From positions 157,359 through 221,358 of IMG/VR virus record IMGVR_UViG_3300036770_008729: a DNA stretch of 64,000 bases; one strand, 5' to 3'. The notes under the pieces were generated by a model that did not search any database, was not told where the DNA came from, and saw only the letters and a program-made list of their open reading frames with translations. This stretch comes from a virus. The translations under genes and the position numbers were made by a program. Below, piece after piece: positions 3,342-63,637 of this stretch; the stretch's first letter is position 1, and each line of letters begins with the position of its first letter.

Positions 3342-4130
3342 CTATATATTCCAACTGATTTCTTTTTTATCAGGTGTTGGATAAAGAGATTTTGAATAAA
3401 ATTCCTCAAACACTTCTCTATATTTTACACACCAATCTTCGATGTTTGGTATATTAAGTTCTACCATTTTCTTTCCCAATCCAGTTGCCATATAAGCTTG
3501 CATCTCATCAGACAGAACATGGTCAGCATATCCATAATCAATAATACACTTGTACATCATTTCTCTTACTTGTGGTTCACATTTTGAAGTTAGAGAATCC
3601 ATTGATTGTTTATAATCAGGTAGTGTGAAATACATAGCGTGCGCAAACTCATGTTCTAACAGAGCATTATCTAACTCATCAACACCAAGTATGTAATAGT
3701 TATGTTCACCTTCAACTTCTTTGATAGTATTGATAATAGAAATCATTTTCTTATCATAAGTGTTCATCTCATCTTCTGGAACATTCATCATACAATCTTC
3801 TAAAATAGTAGATGGTATATTGAAACCAGACCAATCAGCACCATAAGTAAACTCTTGTTTACCGTAATGTTGTTTGTAAAGGTCTTGAAATCTAGAAAAC
3901 TTAAATTGTTTTTTAACAATTTCATCAAATATACTTTCGTAGAACTCTTGAGCTCTTAAAAATAACATTGCTCTTGAATGTGAGTCAGTAACTTTCACTG
4001 CCCAAATATGGTCTCCAACATGATACAATTCTATTGATTGTAAATGTTTTTTCATATCTAATGGAAGTAATCGACTTGGATCAGTGATTAGTTCCTCTAA
4101 AAATAGTTTGTACGATTTAATTATTTTCAC
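3342..4130 (-). CDS. Tagged zincin-like metalloprotease candidate
   Basis: The protein starts with the shared tag MKIIKSYKLFLEE, which resembles the T4 capsid-targeting sequence. A zinc-metalloprotease motif, LLEHEFAHAMYF (HExxH), lies at about residues 157-168, and an acidic DEMQAY about 45 residues later could supply the third ligand of a gluzincin. No secretion signal is present. It is the last gene of a minus-strand run with 4153, 4566 and 5621, all of which also carry the tag. Inference: packaged in the head and injected, or active in head maturation. The family is not otherwise recognised. Confidence 0.6.
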   Translation of the reverse strand: MKIIKSYKLFLEELITDPSRLLPLDMKKHLQSIELYHVGDHIWAVKVTDSHSRAMLFLRAQEFYESIFDEIVKKQFKFSRFQDLYKQHYGKQEFTYGADWSGFNIPSTILEDCMMNVPEDEMNTYDKKMISIINTIKEVEGEHNYYILGVDELDNALLEHEFAHAMYFTLPDYKQSMDSLTSKCEPQVREMMYKCIIDYGYADHVLSDEMQAYMATGLGKKMVELNIPNIEDWCVKYREVFEEFYSKSLYPTPDKKEISWNI

Positions 4131-4152: not shown

Positions 4153-4554
4153 TTACTTATCATTTTTCATAGATTTCATAACCTCTGAATTAGATTTAGA
4201 AATTAGATTCTGAATCTCCTTAACTTCTTCAATATTTAGTACATCTTTTAGACCATCAAACAGTTCTTTCTTTTTGGAATCTGTAGGATTCTTGTTAAAA
4301 TCTTTAGCTAAATCTTTCAAATGTTTAAATTTTTCAGATTTTTTAAGTTTATTCCTAATTCTAAGCATCTTTGGTATATTTGAGAATAATTCTTTAAGCA
4401 TTGTTCTCATACTTTTTGACTTAATCAAAACTATAGCAGTTGCTGTGAGTGATAATCCAAAAAGTGAACCAAATACTATAGCGGCTACATACAATATATC
4501 GGAAATGGATTCATTTACTGGTTCAAAGTTTTCGAACTGTTTTAAGTGTTTCAT
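4153..4554 (-). CDS. Tagged small membrane protein
   Basis: 133 residues. The N-terminus MKHLKQFENFEPVNES fits the shared tag with a possible V-N-E|S cleavage site. One strong membrane segment follows (ISDILYVAAIVFGSLFGLSL and onward, about 17-46), then a basic, helical C-terminal half. Function unknown. It lies 12 nt downstream of 4566 and 22 nt upstream of 3342 in one transcription unit. The combination of a head-targeting-like tag and a hydrophobic helix is unusual and could suit a protein that inserts into the host envelope during injection (inference). Confidence 0.55.
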   Translation of the reverse strand: MKHLKQFENFEPVNESISDILYVAAIVFGSLFGLSLTATAIVLIKSKSMRTMLKELFSNIPKMLRIRNKLKKSEKFKHLKDLAKDFNKNPTDSKKKELFDGLKDVLNIEEVKEIQNLISKSNSEVMKSMKNDK

Positions 4555-4565
4555 AATTTTCTATT

Positions 4566-5624
4566 TTAATTTTTAAGGGAATATAATTTTAGTATCTTTT
4601 TTTGTATTCTTTGTCCTGATGAATTAACTCTATCTTGAACAAATTGAAGAAACTTATCGATTGACATCTTTCTTATATCAACACCTTTAATTGAAGGTGC
4701 ATCCACAAGCTCAATTACTGAGGTTTCTCTAGATTGGTCTAATTGATTAGCTAATCCGTTTTTCATTCTATTTAGAATAATTTCAGGGTTCACATCTGGG
4801 TAAAAACTGTTTATTAAATCAGACATTTGTTTTTTGAAATCCACAGCATTAAAATCTATCATTCTTTGTGCAAATGTCCAAGTAGGACATTTAGATTTCA
4901 ATTCTTCTACATGATACTTCTTAACATAAGGCCAAGCATCTTGAACCATTGCATTCATTTCATGTTTTTCAGACCAGTATAAGTAGTAACCTATTTTATC
5001 TGACCAGGCTTTGAAAATTTCTTTTTTTATTCTACTTCTATTTGCCTCTAGTGACCAAGTAACATCAGTTGATAATTGACCAGCTCCATTAATCATTCTT
5101 CTATAATTTTCATATCCGTGATTTAATTCGTGTAGAGTAGCTGATTCCATTTCTAGTAGTAGATCTTCTATTTCATTGAAACTTTCATTGATTAGAAACC
5201 CTATTTCCATATTAAGAAATATACTGTGGTCGGTTCTTTCATCAACAGCTGGTTCAATATAGGAAGAATCTTCTGTTTTTTCCTTTTCAATACTTGAGCA
5301 AAATCCATTTGTGGTGAAGTTTTTAATTTTAGAAGTTACTGGAAATTCTTTTGTGAATTGTTCATCAGTTCTTCTACTAAAATTGAAACCTATATTGAGT
5401 GTTGAAACTGGAAGACTAATCCAGTTATTAGTTGAAAAGATTTTTGTAACTTTTGTTATGTCTACTTTTTCAACTTTTTTATATGTTTGTTCAGTTGTAT
5501 TTAGAAATTCGTCTAAATGTTTTTGTGCTAACTCCATAATGAAATCAGAGTAAAGTAAGGTTGGTTCGGCTAAACCAACTGCCTCTTTTATTAAAAATCC
5601 GTTGAATCGTTTGATATATCTCAT
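4566..5624 (-). CDS. Tagged HExxH metalloprotease-like protein
   Basis: 352 residues beginning with the shared tag MRYIKRFNGFLIKEA; the L-I-K-E|A stretch looks like a T4 gp21-type cut site. A zinc-binding HExxH motif is in SATLHELNHGYENYRR (about residues 181-196). The rest is not recognised. The stop of 5621 overlaps its start (ATGA type), so the two are probably co-translated. It is the second HExxH protein in this tagged cluster. Possible roles are cleavage of host proteins after injection or of phage head proteins; nothing in the sequence decides between them. Confidence 0.6.
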   Translation of the reverse strand: MRYIKRFNGFLIKEAVGLAEPTLLYSDFIMELAQKHLDEFLNTTEQTYKKVEKVDITKVTKIFSTNNWISLPVSTLNIGFNFSRRTDEQFTKEFPVTSKIKNFTTNGFCSSIEKEKTEDSSYIEPAVDERTDHSIFLNMEIGFLINESFNEIEDLLLEMESATLHELNHGYENYRRMINGAGQLSTDVTWSLEANRSRIKKEIFKAWSDKIGYYLYWSEKHEMNAMVQDAWPYVKKYHVEELKSKCPTWTFAQRMIDFNAVDFKKQMSDLINSFYPDVNPEIILNRMKNGLANQLDQSRETSVIELVDAPSIKGVDIRKMSIDKFLQFVQDRVNSSGQRIQKKILKLYSLKN

Positions 5625-6513: not shown

Positions 6514-7350
6514 ATGAAATTTTTAAAATCATATTCTAAATTTAGACTAATCAAAGAAGAGTTAGTATCTTCAACACAAAAAATAAACTGGGGTGTGGGT
6601 GAATTTGAAGTTAAAGAATTATTCAGGATATTCAATGACTTAAGAGATGAACTACCGGAAGAATTTATTATCGGAGGTGAGAAATTCCATATAGATAAAT
6701 CAATATTTGGAGAAGTAGGAAAGGCGATGGATTTTGAGCCAGAAGAGTTTGAACCACAATGTGAAGATAAATCCGGAAAACCAACTAATCCGAGTAATGA
6801 ACCAGTAACTTCCAACGACTTATTAAAGATGAAGAAATTTCATTTAAAGAAAGGTAGTGTGGAAGTTGATGCAACTAAATACTATGATTTCATCAAATTT
6901 GCTAGAAAATTATTCTGGACAGGAACTCCGTATCAAATGACCGAGGATGATGTTGAGAAATTAGCAAATGATTCTAACGAAATTGGAAGAGCTGGGTTTG
7001 ATGAGTATAGAAAAGATAGTGATAACTATACTAAAATGAAGTTTTCATATGAAAAGATTATGGACTTCTTAAAAGAAAAAGGATCCGAAGATCGTTTTAA
7101 CACTTCAGGAGTATTTAAAGATTTTCCAGATATAGATAAAGAAGCTTACCAATTAGCAGTGTCGTATAAAGGCTACGCAAGTGGCTCTTTCGATCACTTT
7201 GATAAAGCTATTGAAAAGGGTGAAAAAATGCCACTTAGTTCTATTATTGAAATCAACGGTAAATGGTATTTAGTTGGTGGTAATAGAAGAATGTCTTACT
7301 ATTGTTTAAGTAAGATAAATCCAGTAGTTTGGAAAATTAAATTAAAATAA
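6514..7350 (+). CDS. Tagged ParB-like domain protein
   Basis: 278 residues. N-terminal tag MKFLKSYSKFRLIKEEL with a likely L-I-K-E|E cut site. Near the C-terminus, IIEINGKWYLVGGNRRMSYY resembles the G-x-[HN]-R core of the ParB/sulfiredoxin fold, as in phage ParB-like proteins. The middle is acidic and helical. The gene has its own TAATATATA element 4 nt upstream. Inference: a head-targeted, possibly DNA- or nucleotide-acting protein delivered with the genome. The substrate cannot be told from the sequence. Confidence 0.55.
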   Translation: MKFLKSYSKFRLIKEELVSSTQKINWGVGEFEVKELFRIFNDLRDELPEEFIIGGEKFHIDKSIFGEVGKAMDFEPEEFEPQCEDKSGKPTNPSNEPVTSNDLLKMKKFHLKKGSVEVDATKYYDFIKFARKLFWTGTPYQMTEDDVEKLANDSNEIGRAGFDEYRKDSDNYTKMKFSYEKIMDFLKEKGSEDRFNTSGVFKDFPDIDKEAYQLAVSYKGYASGSFDHFDKAIEKGEKMPLSSIIEINGKWYLVGGNRRMSYYCLSKINPVVWKIKLK

Positions 7351-7419: not shown

Positions 7420-8109
7420 CTAATAATTATACTCAAAATAAACCATTGCTTTTTGATACTGTAAATCATAACCTTCGAATCCAAAGAAGTCACAAACAAT
7501 CTCAAACTTATCATCATACCAAGCCTCAGAGTTCAATTCACCATCATAAGCATATGATGCAAAATCAACTCGCATCATTCCATCTTCATAATCTATATCT
7601 CTTACTGCAATTCCAAATTCCTCTATTTTTTCTCTTAACTCATCCTCACTTGGAAGTTTGAATTCTTCTTCTAAATCAACATCTGGTTTCTCAAAAATAT
7701 ATTCTATTCTAACTATTCCAACTTCTTTAGCTGTTGCGGATCTGTTGGAGTTTAATTTCACATCAACCAAAGTCCAACCTAAATCACCAAGTCTTCCGAT
7801 ACTAGTATTCATTTCGGTCATCAAATCGAGTGCCTCAGTATATTTCTTATATTTTGGTCCAAAAGAAAGAGTAATCTTAAATTTGCTGATGATTTTATTA
7901 CCACCTTTAATAACTGGCTTAAAATTATTGTATTTTGCATTCTTTTCAGAATAGTCCGAATATGACATATCACCAGATGATGAACTGAATACAATCTTAA
8001 TACCATCATCAATAAAATCAATTACCGTTTCAACTATATCATCAACAACTGATGGATCCGGTTGAAAACTCTCATTAATAAAATTGTTAAATTTTCTGAC
8101 AAATCTCAT
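7420..8109 (-). CDS. Tagged protein of unknown function
   Basis: 229 residues starting MRFVRKFNNFINESF, a clear copy of the shared tag with a possible I-N-E|S cut site. The body looks like two alpha/beta modules, with an acidic C-terminal half (about 150-229). No catalytic motif is seen. It converges on 6514 and is monocistronic, with a TAATATATA element 6 nt upstream. Confidence 0.6.
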   Translation of the reverse strand: MRFVRKFNNFINESFQPDPSVVDDIVETVIDFIDDGIKIVFSSSSGDMSYSDYSEKNAKYNNFKPVIKGGNKIISKFKITLSFGPKYKKYTEALDLMTEMNTSIGRLGDLGWTLVDVKLNSNRSATAKEVGIVRIEYIFEKPDVDLEEEFKLPSEDELREKIEEFGIAVRDIDYEDGMMRVDFASYAYDGELNSEAWYDDKFEIVCDFFGFEGYDLQYQKAMVYFEYNY

Positions 8110-13946: not shown

Positions 13947-15056
13947 TTATTTTCCTTCTTCTGCACCCATTATCTTTTCAAGTTCAGCTATTTTATCTTT
14001 ATTCTTTTCATCACTTATAAAATCAACAAAACTTGCAACCTTTTTGATATCATCAGGTTTTTTGGTTTTCAACTCACCAAGTTTTTTTACTAAGTCTTCT
14101 TGACCTTCTGCTTTAGCTTCTCCAAACTTGTACTCAGGAACTTCCTTATCATCCACTGTGATCTTTTCTAAGTTTCCAGTTTCGTATTCTTTTAATGGAT
14201 CTGGTTGTTCATTTCTTAATATATCAGTCATTTTTGCCTTTTCGCCCTTTTTAACTGTTCCAGCAATTTTAACTAAAACTTTTTCACCTTCTTTCACGAC
14301 AAGTTTCTTACTACCAGATTTAGTGACTTGTAAAAATCCAGGATGTTTTTTCTCATCTTCTCCTGAAACTGGGCTTAACTCAACTTCAACATCACCCCAA
14401 TCTAATACGATTTTAGGACCTCCTCCACCACCTTCTATTTTGTTATCAGTCATGTACTTTTCTTCTGCAGCTTTAAAAGCTTTTTCGTCATTAATTGTTT
14501 TCTTAAAATTATCTGCAATTTGTTTTACTTCAGCAACCGCAACTGCTTTCTTAGCCGCTAAATCTTTTGCTGCTGCGAACTTTACATCGAATTCTGCTTT
14601 AGCCTTTCCAGCAATATCCTTTAACATACCAATAGCAACTCTGGCTCCAATCATAGTTTCTTTAACGCCTTCATTTATTAATTGACCATTCACCGAAACT
14701 GATTCTTTAACTGCTTTAATTTCCTTATCAAATTCAACCACCTTCTCATCAATTTCTTTTCTAAAAGCATCTTTGATTTGATTAATTGCATTTTCATCTT
14801 CAGCCTTATTGATATTATCAGTAGCAGATTTAAGAATTGTTTCAACTGTAGTTGTCATTTTCTTTTTTAGTTCTTCTACCTTCATACCTTTCTTAAAGTC
14901 ATCCTTAAGGGATTTGAATGGTGCGGTTATATTTCCTAGAAAGTTTTTTAATGCTCCTTTAGCTGCTGCTAAAAGTCCACCAATGAACTCTTCATTAACT
15001 GGTTCATCTATTTTTCTCTTTTCTAGAAACGTTTCATATTTTTGAATTCTTTTCAT
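13947..15056 (-). CDS. Tagged Lys/Glu-rich coiled-coil head-type protein
   Basis: 369 residues. N-terminal tag MKRIQKYETFLEKRKIDEP, with possible cut sites such as P-V-N-E|E. The body is a long Ala/Lys/Glu-rich helical region (about 30-215) followed by a Gly-rich joint (EGGGGG), a small beta domain (about 215-290) and a charged C-terminus. Composition and tag resemble T4 internal or prohead-core proteins. It has its own TAATATATA elements upstream and a terminator downstream, so it is expressed alone, probably strongly and late. Confidence 0.6.
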   Translation of the reverse strand: MKRIQKYETFLEKRKIDEPVNEEFIGGLLAAAKGALKNFLGNITAPFKSLKDDFKKGMKVEELKKKMTTTVETILKSATDNINKAEDENAINQIKDAFRKEIDEKVVEFDKEIKAVKESVSVNGQLINEGVKETMIGARVAIGMLKDIAGKAKAEFDVKFAAAKDLAAKKAVAVAEVKQIADNFKKTINDEKAFKAAEEKYMTDNKIEGGGGGPKIVLDWGDVEVELSPVSGEDEKKHPGFLQVTKSGSKKLVVKEGEKVLVKIAGTVKKGEKAKMTDILRNEQPDPLKEYETGNLEKITVDDKEVPEYKFGEAKAEGQEDLVKKLGELKTKKPDDIKKVASFVDFISDEKNKDKIAELEKIMGAEEGK

Positions 15057-22643: not shown

Positions 22644-23195
22644 TTAATATTCCAAATCCTGGTCTCCTAATTGTTCTAATTTTTGTTTTAACTCTCTATA
22701 ATTATTCAAATCCTCATCAATATCTATTATTGAAACAACATTATCTCCTTTTCTACCTGGTAAAACCGTGATGATATTTATGAAATAATTTATTCCTTTA
22801 TTTTTATTTAAGTCAAATTCCATAATAATTGAGATATTTCTTTCTCTTGAATAAATACTATATCTTCCTGTTTTGAATAGTTCTTTACCACATTTGTCTG
22901 GAAATATTACATTAAAAACTTCGGTAATAAATTCTACAAAATGTTCAACACTGGTAAAGGAAGTTCTCTCTTTGAGTCTTTTAACAATTCCATGTTTAGC
23001 AGTATCATACCAATCAATCCTTAGTTTTTTATTATACCTTAGCATAATTTCAGTTGGAAGTTTATCATTGATATTGAAATCTTCAATAGATGCTTGTTTT
23101 ATTTGATTAGCCAGATCCGAGTCTGATTTACCACTAAGTTTAAGTAAGTCTTTAAGACTTGCCTCTAAGAATAGTTTATACTTTTTAATAATCAT
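22644..23195 (-). CDS. Tagged protein of unknown function
   Basis: 183 residues starting MIIKKYKLFLEASLK, a good copy of the shared tag with an F-L-E|A site. The middle (LRIDWYDTAKHGIVKRLKER) resembles no enzyme I can name. An element TTATATATA, one base off the consensus, lies 4 nt before the ATG. Confidence 0.55.
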   Translation of the reverse strand: MIIKKYKLFLEASLKDLLKLSGKSDSDLANQIKQASIEDFNINDKLPTEIMLRYNKKLRIDWYDTAKHGIVKRLKERTSFTSVEHFVEFITEVFNVIFPDKCGKELFKTGRYSIYSRERNISIIMEFDLNKNKGINYFINIITVLPGRKGDNVVSIIDIDEDLNNYRELKQKLEQLGDQDLEY

Positions 23196-27770: not shown

Positions 27771-28022
27771 TTATCTTTTAGGTATAGGAGTATAGTTTGG
27801 CATTGACCCTTCAAAATTATAATTACCTTTTCTAATTTCTTCATTATCCAATTGACAAGATGCATCATACTCTGGATCTTTCTTCTCATCATCTTTACAA
27901 CTCATACAAATAGTGTCTAGGTTAAATTTAGAAGTTGTAGTAACACCATCGGTTCTTCCGTGACATCTATCACAAAATGCCTTGTTCATTGTAAATGATT
28001 CAAACTTTTTTATATGATTCAT
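27771..28022 (-). CDS. Tagged zinc-ribbon protein
   Basis: 83 residues. The shared tag MNHIKKFESFTMNK is joined to a small zinc-ribbon protein, AFCDRCHGRTDGVTTTSKFN ... ICMSCKDDEKKDPEYD ... EEIRKGNYNFEGS. The second part is a family known from bacteria and phages without such an extension (C-x2-C, C-x2-C, KGNYNFEG). The protein therefore shows the tag as an added module. Function unknown. A TAATATATA element lies exactly 4 nt upstream. Confidence 0.7.
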   Translation of the reverse strand: MNHIKKFESFTMNKAFCDRCHGRTDGVTTTSKFNLDTICMSCKDDEKKDPEYDASCQLDNEEIRKGNYNFEGSMPNYTPIPKR

Positions 28023-30538: not shown

Positions 30539-31213
30539 ATGGATAGAATAAAAAAACTCGAAAATATAAAATTGATGAAAGAGTTAGATTTTATAGAATC
30601 CGAGTTCAATTACAAAAATGAAGTAATATGTGAAGCTGATACAAGCTTTCTTAAAACCGTCAATGCTTATCTAGATATTCATCCAGAATTAAAAAAACTT
30701 TTTGACGAAAAGATTAACAGAAAGATAGAGGAAATGTTACAGAAAAAAACACAAGAGGAAAATGATCAATCAGAAAGTGAATTGGCCAACGATGAATTTG
30801 ACTTGGCTACAGAATTACATTCTGAACAGCAAGAAGAAAAAGAAGAAATTGTTCAGAATGAAGAAAATTCAACAGATTTTCGAAATGAAAAGTTAAAAAA
30901 ACTTTACAGAGAGATTGCTAAACTAACACATCCAGATAAAGTTAAAAATAATAAATTAAATTCTCTCTATCTTAAAGCCACATCATTTTATGATGAAAAT
31001 AACATTTTTGGTATTTATGCAATTTGCAATGAACTCGAAATATATTACGAAATAGACGAAAATGATAATGTTTTTTTGGTTGAAAAAATAAGCAACCTAA
31101 AACAAAGAATTAGTTTTTTAGAATCAACTTTTACTTGGAAGTGGAAACACACGGATGATTCAAAAGAAAGAGAGACTATAATAATAAGATATATTTCATC
31201 ACAATTATCTTAA
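30539..31213 (+). CDS. J-domain-like (DnaJ-type) protein
   Basis: 224 residues. The C-terminal half has LKKLYREIAKLTHPDKVKNN, with the HPD motif that stimulates Hsp70/DnaK, and a following helix (LYLKATSFYDENN). The N-terminal half is a charged, Glu-rich coiled coil. Inference: recruits host DnaK for phage folding or assembly. It is isolated on the plus strand; its stop overlaps the end of the convergent tagged gene. Confidence 0.7.
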   Translation: MDRIKKLENIKLMKELDFIESEFNYKNEVICEADTSFLKTVNAYLDIHPELKKLFDEKINRKIEEMLQKKTQEENDQSESELANDEFDLATELHSEQQEEKEEIVQNEENSTDFRNEKLKKLYREIAKLTHPDKVKNNKLNSLYLKATSFYDENNIFGIYAICNELEIYYEIDENDNVFLVEKISNLKQRISFLESTFTWKWKHTDDSKERETIIIRYISSQLS

Positions 31214-31878
31214 CTTACGTTTATCTTAACATTTCTTGTATTAATCAATTCTTCTAGTTCATCTTTTCTAAATATCTTTTTGAAATATTCATTTTCTTTT
31301 TTTGGATCTACTAATTCCCATTCATTACCGTTTGAAGTTTGATATTCATATTTTTCATTTCCATCTTCTATTTGTATATTTTTAGAAGATAGCTTTGAAT
31401 AAAAGTTATTTATGTTTTCTAAAGCTTCATAAAGTTCAATATCAGACCAACCCTGTGATATGACTTCACCATTTTTATCTTTAATCTCATCCCAGTATTG
31501 AAATAGTAGATAGATTGGGTTGATTGGTGGATTTGGAATAGTCTCTATATCAAAGGCCTCAGATCCATGAATAAACATAAATTTACAAGGCTTATTAATA
31601 AATGTTTGAAAGTCATCAGTATATTGTATGGGAGAAAGTCTCAATTTTATCGAGGTTAATGCATTAATAAAATCAGTTTTCTTTGCTAAGTCCTCTAAAT
31701 CAATTTTAACAGAAAAGTCGGATTTTGGTAAATTAAACTTATCGTGAAAATCCAATCTATTCATAGAAGATAATAGATCGTTCTTAAATACAGTCAATGA
31801 TTCAGAAAGGTCAAATTGATTAAAAAAATCAATATTCAATGATTCCGAAAACTTTTTATATGATTTGATGTATCTCAT
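31210..31878 (-). CDS. Tagged protein of unknown function
   Basis: 222 residues starting MRYIKSYKKFSESLN, a clear shared tag with an F-S-E|S site. The body is mixed alpha/beta without recognised motifs. It is divergent from another tagged gene (31930) and shares a symmetrical promoter-like palindrome with it. Confidence 0.6.
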   Translation of the reverse strand: MRYIKSYKKFSESLNIDFFNQFDLSESLTVFKNDLLSSMNRLDFHDKFNLPKSDFSVKIDLEDLAKKTDFINALTSIKLRLSPIQYTDDFQTFINKPCKFMFIHGSEAFDIETIPNPPINPIYLLFQYWDEIKDKNGEVISQGWSDIELYEALENINNFYSKLSSKNIQIEDGNEKYEYQTSNGNEWELVDPKKENEYFKKIFRKDELEELINTRNVKINVS

Positions 31879-31929: not shown

Positions 31930-33315
31930 ATGAAGTGGCTCAGAAACTATCAATTATATAAAGAATCTAAAAGTGATACATACTCTAGTAAAAGCCTAAT
32001 TCATGAAGTATGTGTTAGTATGGTTCTGTTAAATAATCAATTTTTAGATAACATTCTAGATAGAGGATTAAAAGCTAGATACTCAGAAAACTCTCAAATA
32101 TTTTTAACCGATCTTAAGAATCTTGTATTGGCTAAAAATAGATTGAATTTAGGTAAGTTCATAGAAGGTGATAAGTGTGTAGTAGATGATGAGGTATCAA
32201 AAATAAACATTCTTTTCGATGGATTAAAATTTTCAATAGAGGAAGATTGGGATAAATTAGTTAACGCAAGAATAACTGCAAGAAACATTATAGATAAACT
32301 ACTACCTGATGAAAAATTAGAATCAGATAAAATAAAAACAATATATTGGGTAGGACCAAATAAAGATAAGGAACACCAAGAAGATATTGTTTTAGAAACA
32401 TTAGATGGTAAACAATATTCTTTTTATTTAGATAAAAACCTTTCAAATCAAAAAACAGCTTCTTTTAATCTATTTGCTGATGATTTAATTGGTAAAGACA
32501 TAGAAAAACTTTATAGTGAAGAATATTTAAATAAATGGGACAAACTTACTCAACAATGGATAACAACACTCTATGAGAATTCTAACAAAAATATTCAAAT
32601 GCATATTGAGAAGTTCATCGACCCAAAAAGAATTGATACTTTAGGTTATTTTGAATACTTCGATATAAGACATCAGGATCCACGATTTAAGCATTTGGGA
32701 GAATTTATAAAAGAATTCAATAAAAATATTCTTAAATTTTCAGATTTAATGAATGAAATTTGGAAAAATAGAGATGTTTGTTTTTTAGATTCTGATAGAG
32801 TTTACAAAGAATGGATGGAAACAAAAGTAGTCATACTAAACTCTAAAATTCTTGAAAACTTAATAACATCATCACTAAAAACTAATTTTGCAGATGACAT
32901 TCAGAAAGTTGAAAATAACTTTAAGTTAGCAGGAGGAACTGTAAAAATGAAACTTTTCAAGACTCTAGTTGAAAAGATGGGATGTTTAGAAAGACCAATT
33001 TACTTTTTAGGAAATAACGGCAATTCTTTTCATTTAATACCACAGAGAAACTTTTTTAGAGATAATTATGACGATTTAAATATAAAATTTGATTATCATG
33101 TGAATTTCTCTGTAAGTGAAGAAGAAGAGAATAACGATTTTATAATTAGAATTATTCTAGAATTAGAAGATGAAGTTCTTATAAAAATGAATATAAATGT
33201 CAAATTTACTGGTGGTGAAATGTCTGGTAAATTATCAGCAAAATACAGATACGAATTATCCGATAGTTTCAACTACATAGTATCTAAAAAACTTACAGAA
33301 AATAAATCTGAGTAA
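31930..33315 (+). CDS. Tagged large protein of unknown function
   Basis: 461 residues starting MKWLRNYQLYKESKSDT, the shared tag with a Y-K-E|S site. A stretch EDIVLETLDGKQYSFYLDKN could be the beta-hairpin core of a restriction-endonuclease-like fold, but I see no full catalytic set. The C-terminus is beta-rich (LEDEVLIKMNINVKFTGGEM). Divergent partner of 31878. Candidate injected effector. Confidence 0.5.
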   Translation: MKWLRNYQLYKESKSDTYSSKSLIHEVCVSMVLLNNQFLDNILDRGLKARYSENSQIFLTDLKNLVLAKNRLNLGKFIEGDKCVVDDEVSKINILFDGLKFSIEEDWDKLVNARITARNIIDKLLPDEKLESDKIKTIYWVGPNKDKEHQEDIVLETLDGKQYSFYLDKNLSNQKTASFNLFADDLIGKDIEKLYSEEYLNKWDKLTQQWITTLYENSNKNIQMHIEKFIDPKRIDTLGYFEYFDIRHQDPRFKHLGEFIKEFNKNILKFSDLMNEIWKNRDVCFLDSDRVYKEWMETKVVILNSKILENLITSSLKTNFADDIQKVENNFKLAGGTVKMKLFKTLVEKMGCLERPIYFLGNNGNSFHLIPQRNFFRDNYDDLNIKFDYHVNFSVSEEEENNDFIIRIILELEDEVLIKMNINVKFTGGEMSGKLSAKYRYELSDSFNYIVSKKLTENKSE

Positions 33316-55558: not shown

Positions 55559-55762
55559 CTATTTGTTATAATTGTCTAAAAAGTTCTTTTCGTGTTGTGA
55601 TAAAGATTCAATACCACTTTGATTAATCTTTTCTAAAATCTTATTTAACTTGTTTTCTCTGAATGATCTTCTGTCATTAAACTCATCATCAGTCAAAGGC
55701 CTCTGGTGTTTGACTTCAATTTCTTTCTTACCAAACCTTCTAAGCCAATCTAAAAATTTCAT
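55559..55762 (-). CDS. DUF6576-like small protein
   Basis: 67 residues. The C-terminal [31 protein letters not shown] matches the DUF6576-type tail found at the end of Bacteroidota rhomboid proteins (ILDKIS-x-x-G-x-x-SL-x-x-EK-x-FL). Here it stands alone without the protease. Function unknown. It overlaps the PaaA gene by 4 nt. Confidence 0.6.
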
Positions 55763-56679
55763 AACTCTTTGTTTTTCTTAGCAAACTCAGCAGCTGCCTC
55801 TCTTACCCAAGCACCATCCTCGTGAGCTTTTACTCTCATTTTAAGTCTATCTCTATTCATTGGACCATTTCCACTTACTACCTTATCAAATTCATCCCAA
55901 TCTGGTTCAGTGAAATTCCAATTTCCAGTTGATTCATCAAACTTTAAGTTTTCATCTGGTATAGTTAATCCTAAATAATCAGCCTGTGGTTTAGTTTGAT
56001 TTACAAACTTTTGTCTTAACTGATCATTCGTTTCTCTTTTGATTCTCCACTTAATCGCGTTCTCTGAATTATGAGACCTACTATCCGGTGGTCCAAACAT
56101 CATTAAAGTTGGATACCACCATCTGTTTAAGGCATCTTGTGCCATTTCTTTTTGTTCAGATGACCCGAATGATAACTTGGTCATAATTTCATAACCCTGC
56201 CTTTGATGAAAACTTTCTTCTTTACATATCCTAACCATTGCTCTAGCATAAGGACCATAAGAAGCTCTCTGTAACATTACTTGATTCATTATAGCAGCAC
56301 CATCAACTAACCAACCGATAGCTCCCATATCAGCCCAAGTCAAAGTAGGATAGTTAAATATAGAAGAATATTTTGCTTTTCCACAATGTAAAGCATCTAA
56401 TAATTCCTCTCTTGAAACTCCTAATGTTTCTGCAGCTGTATAGAGGTAAAGACCGTGACCACCTTCGTCTTGAACTTTTGCTAAGAGTATTAGTTTGGCT
56501 CTAAGTGAAGGAGCTCTTGTAATCCAATTTGCTTCAGGTAATTGACCAATAATTTCAGAGTGAGCGTGTTGAGAAATCTGACGAATAAGATGCTTTCTGT
56601 AATCCTCCGGCATCCAGTCTTTAGGTTCGATGTATTGATTTTGTTCTAATTTAGAATCAAATTTTGGTTGATGTTCCAT
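55759..56679 (-). CDS. paaA: Phenylacetyl-CoA epoxidase subunit A (PaaA)
   Basis: 306 residues, essentially full length. Diiron ligands are in [16 protein letters not shown] and [14 protein letters not shown]; the family start ([20 protein letters not shown]) and [17 protein letters not shown] are conserved. In bacteria PaaA, with PaaB, C and E, epoxidises the ring of phenylacetyl-CoA with O2. Here it is alone: no paaB/C/D/E is in the window, so it may join host subunits. Overlaps with both neighbours show it sits in a phage operon. Confidence 0.9.
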
Positions 56680-56869: not shown

Positions 56870-57550
56870 TTATTTACTTTTTCTAAAAGATTCGAAGTTT
56901 TTAACCCATTTTTTAGATTCTGTTGTAGACATTGATTTAACTATACCTTCAAGCTCTAACAAAGTCTTTTTATAATCAGTGTGTAAGATTGCAGTTCCAC
57001 CAGCCGATGTAAACTTCTCAACATATTTAGGTCTATCATCAATTAATATGTCTGTTTTACCTTCAGCAGCTTTACCTTTATCAACTGTTATAATTACTTG
57101 GTCAACCATTCCTTCAAAATGTTCTTTTACCCAATCTTTCTTTTCAATAACAGATGGATTATTCAAATCATTTTCATCACCAACAGGCGCTGATAATATA
57201 TTAGGTAATTTGCCAGTCAATTCCGCAGCCTTAGCAACCATTTCTTTTGCACCAGGCATTAGTGGTAAGTTTCTATAGAAACCAGGTTTTGCAGCTATAC
57301 TAAAGACTTTAGAAGTATATTTATTGAAAGACTTTTTAAGCTCTTTAACTGGACTATTTGGATCTTTTTCTAATTCTGCCTTGAATTTAGTTTTGATATC
57401 ATCATCAACTAATCCTTTGTAGTCTTGAAACTTGGTTTCAATTAGATTGTCTAAATCGGCTCTTAGTTGTATTATCTCTGGATTTTTTTTAAGACCACCA
57501 TCCATATCGGCTAAAACGCCATCTAAGTCAAAAAATATTCTTGTTTCCAT
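56870..57550 (-). CDS. HAD 5'(3')-nucleotidase-like protein
   Basis: 226 residues. Motif I RIFFDLDGVLADMDGG, substrate loop PLMPGAKEMVAKAAE, motif II NILSAPVGDE, late motif DILIDDRPKYVEKFTSAGG. It resembles NT5C-type deoxynucleotidases. The last residues (KKWVKNFESFRKSK) look like the shared N-terminal tag, but placed at the C-terminus. Start overlaps the stop of the 2H gene by 1 nt. Confidence 0.75.
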   Translation of the reverse strand: METRIFFDLDGVLADMDGGLKKNPEIIQLRADLDNLIETKFQDYKGLVDDDIKTKFKAELEKDPNSPVKELKKSFNKYTSKVFSIAAKPGFYRNLPLMPGAKEMVAKAAELTGKLPNILSAPVGDENDLNNPSVIEKKDWVKEHFEGMVDQVIITVDKGKAAEGKTDILIDDRPKYVEKFTSAGGTAILHTDYKKTLLELEGIVKSMSTTESKKWVKNFESFRKSK

Positions 57551-58050
57551 TATTTAAAATCTTCTTTTTTAATATCACCAATTGAGCCAAATGAATCAGC
57601 AAATCCAGGTGTTTTTTTATTCTCCACATTATTTGCAATAGTTATATGAAAATATCTTTCTGACTCAGGATTAGTTAAACCAAGTTGTTCATAGATTGAA
57701 TCTACAAAAGATTTTATCTCTTCTTGATTTTGAACCGCAACTACAAAACTTTTCTTTCCTTTTTCTGGTCTTTCCGCAAAGGTTGTTTGGCCTAATACAA
57801 TTTTAGGCATTTCCATTTTTGGAAGTCCTTCTTTAAGTTTATCTTTATTTTGTTTACAGTTAGCTATAGAAGTTAAGGTTATATGCAACTTATCTTCAGC
57901 TAAAGGAAAATAAGACTTAGCTTCTTCATTTCCCTCATAAATATTTTTAATTTCGGATTTAGTTGTGTTATCTAACTTTAGAAGAAGAGCCGCCTCAAAA
58001 ACTATACAATTATCACCTGTAAAATCTTCATATAATTTTAAATATTTCAT
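57550..58050 (-). CDS. Tagged 2H phosphoesterase
   Basis: 166 residues. The shared tag MKYLKLYEDFTGDN is followed by a 2H phosphoesterase core with both catalytic motifs, KLHITLTSI (about residue 57) and YFHITIANNVE (about 140). 2H enzymes hydrolyse cyclic or 2',3'-cyclic nucleotides; the T4 anti-CBASS protein Acb1 has this fold. I infer a head-packaged enzyme that could destroy defence signals at once on infection, though RNA end processing is also possible. Promoter-like element 18 nt upstream. Confidence 0.75.
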   Translation of the reverse strand: MKYLKLYEDFTGDNCIVFEAALLLKLDNTTKSEIKNIYEGNEEAKSYFPLAEDKLHITLTSIANCKQNKDKLKEGLPKMEMPKIVLGQTTFAERPEKGKKSFVVAVQNQEEIKSFVDSIYEQLGLTNPESERYFHITIANNVENKKTPGFADSFGSIGDIKKEDFK

Positions 58051-58748: not shown

Positions 58749-60218
58749 TTATTTTATTATTGATACTTTATCTATTGTTAAATCCCCAGTATGTTTACCG
58801 TTATCTTTGTAAATGGTAATGTTATATTCAGCAGACGCTGGAACCTCATACTCAAAAGTAAACTCTGGTCTTCCATTTTTATTTAACTTCCTACAACATC
58901 CCTTCTCACAAGACTTACCAGACATTTTATGGTCTGCTCCAAAGAAGTTCATAAATCCAGCGAATGTGGAATTTGTAGGGTTACAAACACCATTCTCGTT
59001 TACATAAACCTCATAAACACCTTTTGGAACTTTTGTAAAACTAACAACAACTTCTAACTTTACCTTTTTGGTTGAAGTTAGGTTGATTTGAGTTAAGCCA
59101 AGAACTTTGATACCGGTGGTTATCTTACCACTTACTTTAGTTCCAGGTGTTGATTGTGCAAATAACTTCGGTTCTACCTCATCCATCAATCTAACTTCTT
59201 TTATTTTAACAGGAGTGTCATCAAAATCATAATCCATAGTGTAGATAATATCCAATGCCTCTTCTAAAGAATAAACTACTTTCTCACCATTCTCATTGAA
59301 GAAAACATAAGGCCACTCTACTTCTTCTAACTGTTCTATTGTAACAGGTTGACCATTATTAGAATTGTGCCATTGTTGCCAAATACGGTCTATATTAGAA
59401 TGATGTGTCCAAAAGATAGGATCGAAAGCAGCAGTTGGAACCCAACCCATAAGTCCAGTATTTGTGGTAGTTCCAGTAATTGAATTATTAAACTGTAAAG
59501 TTCCTGTTGTATCATTACCAGCACCAATGTAATCATGCATTGCACCGTGAGGAGCATTATTTATGTTAAGACAAAACATTTTATAATCAGTATAACTCAT
59601 TATTTTTGTTAAGTCTAAAGATCTACTAATTTCACCAGATACCGGCCATCCATCATTCAAACTATCATATCTAGCTTCTTCAAAAAGTGAAGAGTGTTTA
59701 TCTCTAAATAAATCTGGAATACATCTATCTCTATCATTATTATTTGTATAAGCCCAATAAGGAAGTGCAAAATCATTATATCCTGATAATTTTCTAACTA
59801 TTTTTTCAAAGTGCCAGATATAAAGACGGTGCCAAACTAAAAAGTGTAATTTTTCTTTACCTGATGGAGTGTGAGTACAATTATCCCAACCATCCATTTT
59901 ATCACCTACATTGTGATAAGCACCACACCATCGATTGTTTTTAATTGTATCAGGAACCCAGTGAATGGCACCTTGATAATACCAACTCAGGGGATCTTTA
60001 CAATCTTTTTTTCTCATAATATCTAAAGCTTTGTTTAAGGCTAAAAGGTCGTTAATGGCTTCAGGTGAATTTGCATTTTTTCTTGTAAATCTTTGTTGTT
60101 CTGTTTGTTTCTCGTTATTACTACAAGAAAAAAGAAACATACTAAAAACGATTAAGAAAAAGATAATAAGACCAATAAATAACTTTTTAAGGTCTTTGTA
60201 AGTAGTGAATCGATTCAT
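58749..60218 (-). CDS. Tyrosinase / polyphenol oxidase lipoprotein
   Basis: 489 residues. Lipoprotein signal FFLIVFSMFLFSCSNNEK. Type-3 copper sites: KLHFLVWHRLYIWHFEKIV (CuA; a further His in CTHTP or AYHNV) and NNAPHGAMHDYI with DPIFWTHHSNIDRIWQQWHN (CuB). The C-terminal part (about 350-489) resembles the DWL/KFDV domains of plant-type polyphenol oxidases. It oxidises phenols to quinones with O2. The lipobox places it in the host envelope. It has its own terminator. Very rare in phages as far as I know. Confidence 0.9.
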   Translation of the reverse strand: MNRFTTYKDLKKLFIGLIIFFLIVFSMFLFSCSNNEKQTEQQRFTRKNANSPEAINDLLALNKALDIMRKKDCKDPLSWYYQGAIHWVPDTIKNNRWCGAYHNVGDKMDGWDNCTHTPSGKEKLHFLVWHRLYIWHFEKIVRKLSGYNDFALPYWAYTNNNDRDRCIPDLFRDKHSSLFEEARYDSLNDGWPVSGEISRSLDLTKIMSYTDYKMFCLNINNAPHGAMHDYIGAGNDTTGTLQFNNSITGTTTNTGLMGWVPTAAFDPIFWTHHSNIDRIWQQWHNSNNGQPVTIEQLEEVEWPYVFFNENGEKVVYSLEEALDIIYTMDYDFDDTPVKIKEVRLMDEVEPKLFAQSTPGTKVSGKITTGIKVLGLTQINLTSTKKVKLEVVVSFTKVPKGVYEVYVNENGVCNPTNSTFAGFMNFFGADHKMSGKSCEKGCCRKLNKNGRPEFTFEYEVPASAEYNITIYKDNGKHTGDLTIDKVSIIK

Positions 60219-60306: not shown

Positions 60307-62001
60307 ATGAAATGGATTAAAACTAGAAAACAATTTTTGATAGAAGCTATCGAGGATGAAATATTCCCTAGACAAGCTGAAGCGATTAAAAGGACTTGGG
60401 GTGAAAAATATTTAAAAATGACCAAGCCTCCTGTATCAAATGAACTTAAAAAATATGAAGGTAAATGGAAATTATCCGAAGAAGATAAATTAAAAATGCT
60501 AGGATCCTTCTTTCAATGTGATATGAAGGTCATTTTTGATAATATTGCTAGTTTACCAGATAAGTTTTGTTATACGATTGCTCAATCAATTAGTATTCCA
60601 CAAACTCCAGAGCCTGAAAAGTATGAAGTAGTTCTAAAAGACTTCAATATGAAAGAACCTTCTATTGACCAAATTGTAGCAATTTTTGATAACATTTTCC
60701 GAAAATTAAATGTTAATGAAACAATTAGTGATTCTATGATTCAAAAAGATGAATCCGGAAGACCAATTAGAGATTCAGAAGGACAGATGGTAAAGGTTGC
60801 AAAAGAAAAAGGATCTCCTATTTTTACTAATAGTTGCACTAACATTACTTCTTTCTGTGATGATTACAACAGATGTTATCCAGATGAAAAAGTAGATACA
60901 AATATTTTCACTGAAAATAATATAAAAAGTTTAAGAAACTTAGCAAAAGAAGATTGTAACGGTAAATTAAAAGTAGATTTTGAAATTTTTAACAAAGATC
61001 TTTACTTATCATTTTCTCACAATGAGAAGGACATATTAAATATGTCTATATCAAAGTTCTACAATTCTTGTCAAAATCTTTATGATGGAGGATACAGAGA
61101 ACAATTATTAGGTAATATATTTGATCCTAACTCAGCTCCAGCATTTATGACATTTGATACTCCTATTTTCTGGGGAGATGAAAAGGTATCAGATCAATTA
61201 CCTCTTTCAAGAACAGTAATAAGAAATATTGAGAATTTTGATGGGTCTAGTCGAGGTATTTTCTTTGATAGAACTTATCCTGATAGATGTGAAAAAGTAT
61301 TCAAAGAGTTATTAGTTAAGTATAGCAAAATGCAACAAACAATAACAGATAGAGATTCTGTTACTTACTTATTTACACCAGACATCGATCCATCAGACAC
61401 AGGAGTTAAAACTCCTTATATGGATAGATTAGGTGTTGATAGAAAACCAATGATTGGAGTAAATTGTAAAGCACTTTACTTATCAAGAGTAGGTGATTGG
61501 TCTGGTATAAAGATTTCACCAAATGCAAAGATTAAAGAATTAGTGGTTGAAACAACCGAAATTCCTCAGAACTTATTTGACCTTAAATTAAACTTAGATT
61601 GGATTAAATTTAAGTATTTACATTTGAAAGATTTAAAACCATTTGGTGGTTTATTCACTGATTCAGTTGCTTTTGATAAATGTAAATTAAAGAATGAAGT
61701 TCTTCAAGAAAGAAAAGAAACTAAGAAGTTACAATTAATCAGTTGTGACATCGATGCGATTGATTTGTCTGGTTTCTCTAAATTAGAAGAGTTACACTTA
61801 TTGTTAACTTTAAAAGATATAGATGAACTTAAAAGAACACTTACAGGAACTAAACTAAAAAAGTTAGTTATCTCTGATGAAATATTAGGATTCTCTAAAA
61901 AAGATAGAAAAATGAGAATGTCTGAAGAAGCTTCTCAATTCATCGAAGGATTAAAAAGAACTGGTGTGTCAGTAGAAATAAAAGGAATTTATAATAAATA
62001 A
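60307..62001 (+). CDS. Tagged large protein with LRR-like end
   Basis: 564 residues starting MKWIKTRKQFLIEAIED, one of the best copies of the tag (L-I-E|A). The middle has an NSCTNITSFCDDYNRCYPDE Cys stretch; the C-terminal part has leucine-rich, repeat-like strands (KKLQLISCDIDAIDLSGFSK-LEELHLLLT). No catalytic motif is recognised. It is 1 nt upstream of another tagged gene. Candidate injected effector. Confidence 0.6.
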   Translation: MKWIKTRKQFLIEAIEDEIFPRQAEAIKRTWGEKYLKMTKPPVSNELKKYEGKWKLSEEDKLKMLGSFFQCDMKVIFDNIASLPDKFCYTIAQSISIPQTPEPEKYEVVLKDFNMKEPSIDQIVAIFDNIFRKLNVNETISDSMIQKDESGRPIRDSEGQMVKVAKEKGSPIFTNSCTNITSFCDDYNRCYPDEKVDTNIFTENNIKSLRNLAKEDCNGKLKVDFEIFNKDLYLSFSHNEKDILNMSISKFYNSCQNLYDGGYREQLLGNIFDPNSAPAFMTFDTPIFWGDEKVSDQLPLSRTVIRNIENFDGSSRGIFFDRTYPDRCEKVFKELLVKYSKMQQTITDRDSVTYLFTPDIDPSDTGVKTPYMDRLGVDRKPMIGVNCKALYLSRVGDWSGIKISPNAKIKELVVETTEIPQNLFDLKLNLDWIKFKYLHLKDLKPFGGLFTDSVAFDKCKLKNEVLQERKETKKLQLISCDIDAIDLSGFSKLEELHLLLTLKDIDELKRTLTGTKLKKLVISDEILGFSKKDRKMRMSEEASQFIEGLKRTGVSVEIKGIYNK

Positions 62002-62002
62002 T

Positions 62003-63637
62003 ATGAAATATCTAAAACTATTTGAAGCTTTCGAATCGACTATATTAAGTAAAACTTTATCTTTCATCAAAGATGAAGAGTCTAAGAAACAATTCATGTT
62101 TGCACTAGACAAGATTTGTTCTACAATTGATTATCCTAAATCTGAGTTAAAAGATGAATACTTTCAATACTTATCATTTTACCCAGCACTTAAACTAAGT
62201 GCTAAAACAGGTGATGAACCTTGTGAAGCTTTATCACGTGATTCTTATCCAGACTATGCAGTTGATGGGGCAAAGTGTAAAGGAGGTAAAGTATTAAGAA
62301 AGTGGGGAGCAAGAACAAGAGAAGTTGAATGTAGTATATGTAAAGGAACTGGTGTTAAACCAAAGAAACCTGAAATTAAGTTAGTTAAGTTTTGGTTTTC
62401 AACAGAAGGTAAATATATTGCTGTTACAGCAGTTGATGGCTTAATAAGAAACACAACGACTTCATCAACCGCGAGAGGGTATTCTAAAGACTATCAAGAT
62501 TATATAGTAGTTAACACCACTGAAGATTCTAGAGAACTACAAACTGGAATGATAGTTAGAGTTACTATTAATGGAAGACCTACTATTTGTTATATTGTTA
62601 AAGATAGAAATACTTATCCATATGCAATACAAGATGAACACAGTGGATCCACACCAGATAACATACCTTCTAGAAACTGGAGGAATTTTGGACATAGTTC
62701 TTGGCACTTATCAAGAGGTGAATACAGAGGAACAATTGAAATACTTGAACCAAAAAGTAAAGAAGAGGTTATTGTAGAACCAAATCCTTATACTTGGAAT
62801 GCAACGCTTAGCTTATCTGGTTATTCAGGTATGAAAGTAGATATTTATTCTGATGTTCAAGAAAAAATTAAGGATGCAAACTTTGCTATTGTTTTAGATT
62901 TCGGTAAGATGAAACAATCAGAATTCAAAACTACTTATTCAACGAGAAGTGAAAGAGAAGAATCTAGAACTGGTGCATTAGCATTAGAGAAACCTGAAGA
63001 TATAAAAGCAACTAACATTGAAAGATATATTAAAAGTTTATCTGATAAAGTTGCAAGTGGAGATGAATTAACAAAAGTAACAAGAGTTATTCCAAGATTA
63101 ATGGGTGGAAGAAATATTTTGCTTTATATTGGTATGAATAGAAATCTTTCAACTATTGATAGTTTAGCTACACGACTTTATAGATTTATTACAGAAGATG
63201 AGGACAATAAAGAATACAATGCAAGAGAAATAGTAGCAACAATAAAAAACTCATACAAACAAAATCTACAATTTACTACTGATTTAAATGAAGTTTTAGA
63301 TGAAGTAAGAAAACAATTACAAAAACCAGGAAAAGAAGCTTATTTATCAACATTTGACAAAATGTTAGAGATATCACAAAAGATAAATGATAAAGTATTT
63401 TCAACAGAAGTTAAATCTATTGAAGATATTGAATACATCTATCAAAAATTGAGGACAATTCAAAATATGTTACAATCCAGTCGTAATCCAGCAAATAGAT
63501 TGAGATACTTTATGGAAAGATTAAGTTATCTAACTACTGATAGATGTGTATCTAGAATTTTAGAAATTGACCAAGATGAAATACCAAGTATAATTGAAGG
63601 TCTAGAATCAATTGGAAGATTTGTTGAGAGAGTTTAA
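62003..63637 (+). CDS. Tagged large protein with zinc-finger-like motif
   Basis: 544 residues starting MKYLKLFEAFESTILS. A DnaJ-type zinc motif half is visible (AKCKGGKVLRKWG ... VECSICKGTGVKPKK, about 90-125). The rest is beta-rich (about 130-290) and then helical with basic residues (about 330-540). No enzyme signature. Immediately follows the tagged 60307 gene, so both are made together. Confidence 0.6.
   Translation: MKYLKLFEAFESTILSKTLSFIKDEESKKQFMFALDKICSTIDYPKSELKDEYFQYLSFYPALKLSAKTGDEPCEALSRDSYPDYAVDGAKCKGGKVLRKWGARTREVECSICKGTGVKPKKPEIKLVKFWFSTEGKYIAVTAVDGLIRNTTTSSTARGYSKDYQDYIVVNTTEDSRELQTGMIVRVTINGRPTICYIVKDRNTYPYAIQDEHSGSTPDNIPSRNWRNFGHSSWHLSRGEYRGTIEILEPKSKEEVIVEPNPYTWNATLSLSGYSGMKVDIYSDVQEKIKDANFAIVLDFGKMKQSEFKTTYSTRSEREESRTGALALEKPEDIKATNIERYIKSLSDKVASGDELTKVTRVIPRLMGGRNILLYIGMNRNLSTIDSLATRLYRFITEDEDNKEYNAREIVATIKNSYKQNLQFTTDLNEVLDEVRKQLQKPGKEAYLSTFDKMLEISQKINDKVFSTEVKSIEDIEYIYQKLRTIQNMLQSSRNPANRLRYFMERLSYLTTDRCVSRILEIDQDEIPSIIEGLESIGRFVERV

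Follow-up and report, generated by a model that had tools for sequence, protein, structure and literature searches.

In bacteriophage T4, internal proteins enter the head core via a targeting sequence, which is removed by gp21, and are injected (PMC9958956, PMC5694885, PMC9391042). IPII and IPIII start with MKTYQEFIAEA, and IPI starts with MKTFKEFTS. A second precedent concerns 2H domains, which occur in injected polyvalent proteins and have been suggested to degrade nucleotide signals (Iyer et al. 2017, PMC5512222), while jumbo-phage 2H enzymes are listed as counter-nucleotide or RNA-repair enzymes (Iyer et al. 2021, PMC7824862); through these two studies, the idea of delivering this class already exists. 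The third is Acb1 (T4 gp57B), a small phage protein of 2H fold whose neighbourhood with ipI has also been noted (PMC9117128). Here we computed, for a protein of a huge phage, its 2H assignment, its tag family, the retention of both tag and gene pair by one relative, and the head protease and MCP of the relatives.

The 2H gene and its superfamily

The window analysed is a 64,000-nucleotide stretch of a 281-kb virus record (G000), itself a fragment. On its minus strand, one gene, starting with the ATG at 58050 and ending with the TAA at 57550, codes for a 166-aa protein. Its features are:

57550..58050, minus strand: 2H phosphoesterase CDS (ORF; TIGR02258 E = 1.1e-5; Pfam 2H families 0.01; Foldseek PDB)
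57877..57885, minus strand: first catalytic motif, H56-I-T58 (sequence; in register with the ThpR profile)
57640..57648, minus strand: second catalytic motif, H135-I-T137 (sequence; in register with the ThpR profile)

Both HxT motifs claimed in the preliminary description (KLHITLTSI and YFHITIAN) are present. H56 and H135 lie 79 residues apart, within the 2H criterion of two HxT/S about 70–90 residues apart in one ORF, and a two-motif DNA pattern at this spacing matched once in the window and in 0 of 100 shuffles. The claimed 2H phosphoesterase identity is borne out by profile searches (TIGR02258 and the 2H Pfam families) and by fold searches (Foldseek against PDB and BFVD). TIGR02258 (NCBIfam, RNA 2',3'-cyclic phosphodiesterase) matched at E = 1.1e-5 with 25.4 bits, far under its curated cut-off of 65.7 bits; judged by sequence, this ThpR/LigT equivalog is the nearest group of the protein and, by the cut-off, not its family. 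In Pfam, several 2H families scored near 0.01, including 2H-SAK (E = 0.01) and 2_5_RNA_ligase2 (E = 0.011), and Acb1 reached E = 0.12, under the cut-off. PDB sequence searches returned no convincing relative, PADLOC no match and a genome_contigs search no close cellular relative.

The AlphaFold2 model, built from two sequences, is modest (pLDDT 57.6), and that of the trimmed homologue is worse (pLDDT 47.8). Foldseek placed human USB1, Acb1, Deinococcus CPDase, a Burkholderia phage phosphodiesterase and LigT on top in PDB, and phage CPDases, Acb1 and viral polyprotein phosphodiesterase domains in BFVD. Nearly all matches are 2H enzymes and none has an E-value below 1e-3, so the fold search backs the 2H superfamily, not a sub-family. 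The structural kinship with Acb1 that had been put forward holds for the 2H fold, but CPDase, USB1 and LigT match as well as Acb1 does.

Relation to ThpR/LigT and Acb1

An hhalign profile of the 2H protein, consisting of two sequences, was compared with five ThpR/LigT and seven Acb1 proteins. Against ThpR/LigT it aligned over 125 columns (columns 25–154) at E = 2.2e-5 with both HxT motifs in register, whereas against the Acb1 set just 38 columns aligned, in the wrong register and with no in-register HxT match. The residues invariant in the Acb1 set (S50 and R51, following the first motif, and the C-terminal E138 and E141), among them the base-specific contact E141 (PMC9117128), have no counterpart in the 2H protein, which reads HITLTSIANCK at the first motif and has no EYxExL-like end. 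Since the Acb1 and ThpR profiles match one another as well as the 2H profile matches ThpR, the ThpR placement is a lean and not a proof: in sequence, the protein appears closest to the ThpR/LigT group, with the sub-family not settled, and it looks more like an RNA/nucleotide 2',3'-cyclic-phosphate enzyme than like Acb1. From ThpR/LigT (TIGR02258), its best profile match, it differs in its score (25.4 versus 65.7 bits), a shorter C-terminus and a tag. With Acb1 it shares the 2H fold, the small size of a phage protein and the targeting-like N-termini seen in T4-like Acb1, and it differs in register and conserved residues; the gene context differs as well, being 57A/ipI for Acb1 in T4 and a nucleotidase gene here.

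These comparisons bear on a reading in which the protein, once injected, breaks down cyclic (oligo)nucleotide signals such as those of CBASS or type III CRISPR. In its favour, Acb1 belongs to the 2H enzymes and ranks among the top Foldseek matches, the tag would predict early delivery, injected 2H domains were already proposed for such a role (PMC5512222), and T4 Acb1 adjoins the injected anti-defence protein IPI (PMC9117128). The out-of-register profile, the missing equivalents of S50, R51, E138 and E141, the lack of a PADLOC match and the equal fit of CPDase, USB1 and LigT structures argue against this reading, which we regard as possible but doubtful. An Acb1-type, anti-CBASS role, as first put forward for this protein, finds no backing in the sequence and is the weaker part of that proposal.

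An N-terminal tag shared by unrelated proteins

The catalytic domain is preceded by a short peptide:

58021..58050, minus strand: N-terminal tag, residues 1–10, MKYLKLYEDF (common to dozens of unrelated ORFs; homologue tagged)

Its layout resembles that of T4 IPI, IPII and IPIII, short cargo proteins with an N-terminal MK and aromatic-x-x-aromatic followed by hydrophobic-x-E (PMC5694885), whereas the letters differ (MKYLKLYEDF here, MKTYQEFIAE in T4). Candidate head-protease sites are LYE↓D (residue 8) or VFE↓A (residue 19); a clean terminal x-E-[AS] site is absent from this tag. The pattern MK[HY][LI]K.[FY]..F occurs on about 60–70 unrelated proteins in sampled stretches of the phage and two relatives. 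In stretches sampled from three phages, 30 of 450 ORFs begin with the core tag versus about 1.2 expected from internal stretches (25-fold; p~1e-31), confirming that the head-targeting-like tag previously described on the 2H enzyme is real. A looser pattern gave 72 N-termini, 58 of which carry [ILVFYM]xE at residues 7–22, against 37.3 ± 3.7 in shuffles and 161 of 446 untagged ORFs of the same phages; the looser pattern partly selects such composition, so the comparison with untagged ORFs is supportive only. Across 47 tagged, otherwise little-similar proteins, the consensus is MKxLKxFxxF. Tag codons vary synonymously from gene to gene, indicating that the peptide and not a DNA cassette is conserved; spread as a cassette was ruled out on this ground, except for one tandem duplicate (L019:14387 and L019:14962, whose DNA does not differ across the tag and the bases upstream of it).

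In AT-rich genomes lysine- and isoleucine-rich starts are frequent, and the tag might on that account be a chance or compositional N-terminal pattern with no bearing on delivery. Against this stand the 25-fold excess over internal stretches and the retention of the tag in several orthologues with diverged letters: among 12 cross-genome pairs with a tagged member, five are tagged on both sides by regex, and two more have tag-like starts by eye that the regex missed. The tag is also rare in Tenacibaculum phage pT24, where 68 sampled ORFs gave 0 tags with the strict pattern and 2 with a relaxed one. We consider a chance origin very improbable.

Further tagged proteins of the window are:

62003..63637, plus strand: tagged protein MKYLKLFEAFES (ORF and tag pattern)
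60307..62001, plus strand: tagged protein MKWIKTRKQFLIEAIE (by eye, outside the regex set)
31930..33315, plus strand: tagged protein MKWLRNYQLYKES (tag pattern)
31210..31878, minus strand: tagged protein MRYIKSYKKFSES (tag pattern)
27771..28022, minus strand: tagged protein MNHIKKFESF, without an x-E site
22644..23195, minus strand: tagged protein MIIKKYKLFLEAS (by eye, outside the regex set)
13947..15056, minus strand: tagged protein MKRIQKYETFLEKR (tag pattern)
7420..8109, minus strand: tagged protein MRFVRKFNNFINES (tag pattern)
6514..7350, plus strand: tagged protein MKFLKSYSKFRLIKEE (tag pattern)
4566..5624, minus strand: tagged protein MRYIKRFNGFLIKEA (tag pattern)
4153..4554, minus strand: tagged protein MKHLKQFENFEPVNES (tag pattern)
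3342..4130, minus strand: tagged protein MKIIKSYKLFLEE (tag pattern; LR756502 orthologue also tagged)

The tagged set includes a PNK-like AAA_33 kinase, an NFACT-R domain and a weak ART-PolyVal match, while the MCP, protease, portal-like ORFs, baseplate wedge, DHFR, HU and six RNA ligase loci are untagged. The kinase (L019:941-2248) is a P-loop protein of the same phage with a weak PADLOC match to NsnB. The ART-PolyVal match (E = 0.0016, under the cut-off) belongs to a tagged 189-aa protein at L021:10744-11310; T4 packages an ADP-ribosyltransferase, Alt. Adjacent tagged genes form runs at L017:4210-8671 and L019:10244-16451, suggestive of cargo islands.

Tag cores also occur at C-termini, five versus 1.2 expected (p = 0.007), with a motif partly defined from two nucleotidase ends and the count thus partly circular. 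They lie at 56873-56914 of the window, L021:2269-2991, L021:1086-2237, L023:11329-13215 and L028:1012-1860, with examples reading VKNFESF, VMTFEGF and IKAFESF. Such copies would be as compatible with a general localisation signal as with a head tag, and they suit another reading, in which the protein is an ordinary RNA-repair CPDase made in the infected cell and the peptide a different localisation or stability signal (for example, for a replication compartment or membrane). The several ATP-grasp RNA ligase-type ORFs of the relatives, the tagged AAA_33 (PNK-like P-loop) kinase of G000 and the link of jumbo-phage 2H enzymes to RNA repair (PMC7824862) point the same way. This reading is, in our estimate, unlikely: the tag resembles T4 targeting sequences including hydrophobic-x-E, no tag is seen on the capsid-shell, tail and core enzymes or at the six RNA ligase loci, and an RNA ligase was not found in the G000 fragment. 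RtcB was found in neither G000 nor G001.

A homologue and a neighbouring nucleotidase

A single homologue of the 2H protein, 61% identical, was found in the same gene order on the 464.6-kb contig G001; its N-terminus is tagged (MRHLKSFKLFESS) with a candidate protease site LFE↓S, so conservation of the tag on the 2H enzyme rests on two sequences. Searches of viral_contigs (protein, two-row alignment and two motif patterns) recovered a 2H relative in G001 only, and there was none in annotated phages at E<=1 or in five Mahaphage-clade genomes. One viral_contigs match, L004, looks 2H-like by eye; matches in L006/L007 and L051/L052 looked like chance.

The adjacent gene encodes a nucleotidase:

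56870..57550, minus strand: NT5C-type 5'(3')-deoxyribonucleotidase (Pfam NT5C 6.8e-12; phrog_2643 1.5e-23; synteny)
56873..56914, minus strand: C-terminal tag-like end of the nucleotidase, KKWVKNFESFRKSK (5 C-terminal matches versus 1.2 expected)

Its start codon and the 2H stop codon share 1 nt (TAATG), and the same nucleotidase also follows the 2H homologue in the G001 locus (L002), where it ends in the tag-like RKVMTFEGFINFSK. The neighbour gene is a member of the NT5C 5'(3')-deoxyribonucleotidase family and differs from it by the C-terminal tag-like extension. Because the homologue is tagged and the nucleotidase ends in a tag core, we infer head targeting with good support. In general, cleavage by 2H CPDases yields a 2'-phosphate, and 2'(3')-phosphates are possible substrates of 5'(3')-nucleotidases, which makes a predicted two-step pathway chemically reasonable.

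Two other genes nearby were annotated. Positions 58749-60218 encode a lipoprotein-like tyrosinase (Pfam 2.6e-26), and positions 55759-56679 a full-length PaaA/PaaC phenylacetate catabolism protein (Pfam 4.3e-93) with DUF5522 and DUF6576 as neighbours; the PaaA/PaaC gene looks host-derived.

Phage relatives and head machinery

The baseplate wedge of the window phage shares 62% identity with its counterparts in LR756502 (642 kb) and LR745206 (635 kb), and on this basis the phage groups with the largest Mahaphage-clade phages, for which Bacteroidetes are the predicted hosts (PMC7162821). A viral_contigs search with the baseplate query gave no match. A T4-type head protease (phrog_207) and MCP (phrog_138) are present in 6 of 7 records; the relatives carrying them are 630–735 kb Mahaphage genomes and the homologue's own contig, G001. 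Neither the phrog_207 protease nor the phrog_138 MCP was found in the 281-kb fragment G000, for which PF03420 and PF07068 were uninformative, the controls being silent too, and the phrog profiles were used instead. The head protease ORFs (L031-L035, L037, L045-L049) are about 630–810 aa long compared with 212 aa for T4 gp21; a scaffold might be fused to them as their long C-terminal region. A candidate MCP cleavage site in the relatives, INE↓NAY, was dropped as evidence, being out of alignment with T4 gp23 E65.

Proposed function of the tagged enzyme

Layout and context indicate that the tag probably marks cargo for loading into the head, and the idea of a packaged enzyme is plausible and has more behind it than the preliminary description could show. 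For the 2H enzyme, we infer packaging, cleavage, injection, substrate and nucleotidase coupling as follows. The N-terminal peptide would dock the enzyme in the prohead core, like a T4 capsid-targeting sequence, and the head protease would probably trim it at the hydrophobic-x-E site. The enzyme would be injected together with the phage DNA, and its two HxT motifs would serve to open the 2',3'-cyclic phosphates of nucleotides or RNA ends, after which the adjacent 5'(3')-nucleotidase could take off the resulting phosphomonoester. The benefit may be early RNA-end repair or the clearing of nuclease- or defence-derived cyclic nucleotides. Taken as a whole, this explanation, a ThpR/LigT-like 2H enzyme that is head-packaged, injected and opens 2',3'-cyclic phosphates, is the best one available and has in our judgement an even chance of being right.

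The claim of a new delivery mode was overstated, given that injected 2H domains were proposed in 2017 (PMC5512222). In those polyvalent proteins, too, the 2H domain is predicted to reach the host along with the DNA and may degrade nucleotide signals there, but it forms part of a long multidomain protein, for example in fusion with MuF or portal domains. The new element is a short address peptide on a solo 2H enzyme in huge phages. Compared with the T4 internal proteins, the predicted cargo here is an enzyme and the cargo set is far larger; roughly 10% of proteins carry the tag, a load well beyond that of T4, which counts against the packaging explanation. Should the tag prove to direct head loading, the cargo of uncultivated huge phages would be readable straight from sequence and dozens of unknown proteins would become candidates for injected effectors. 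If packaged, the 2H enzyme would act ahead of any phage gene expression.

Targeting-like N-termini on T4-like Acb1

T4 Acb1 (57B), next to ipI, itself starts with MMEFKDFSTG. Among 79 Acb1 loci, the T4 targeting-core pattern was found at 27 of 54 distinct Acb1 N-termini versus 52 of 404 other ORFs there; these counts are inflated by shared descent, and many of the 52 matching ORFs look like targeting-sequence proteins themselves. Several distant Acb1 proteins show the full targeting form, e.g. MIRSFSEFITEAAEQ, MLKSFSEFTEATKQ and MKTVKEFLTEEQKG. Acb1 itself may be packaged in some phages, and a small literature search found no paper linking Acb1 to a T4 targeting-like N-terminus. A wider and rather improbable generalisation would be that huge Bacteroidota phages load a large, changeable enzyme set via a peptide at either end, with the 2H enzyme and nucleotidase clearing cyclic-phosphate nucleotides at injection, and that T4-like phages do likewise with Acb1, making pre-packaged signal destruction general. 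With such an N-terminus present on T4-like Acb1, the question can already be addressed in cultivated laboratory phages. Targeting-like Acb1 starts were seen at L050:9953-10411 and in L066, L136, L139, L140, L142, L147 and L150.
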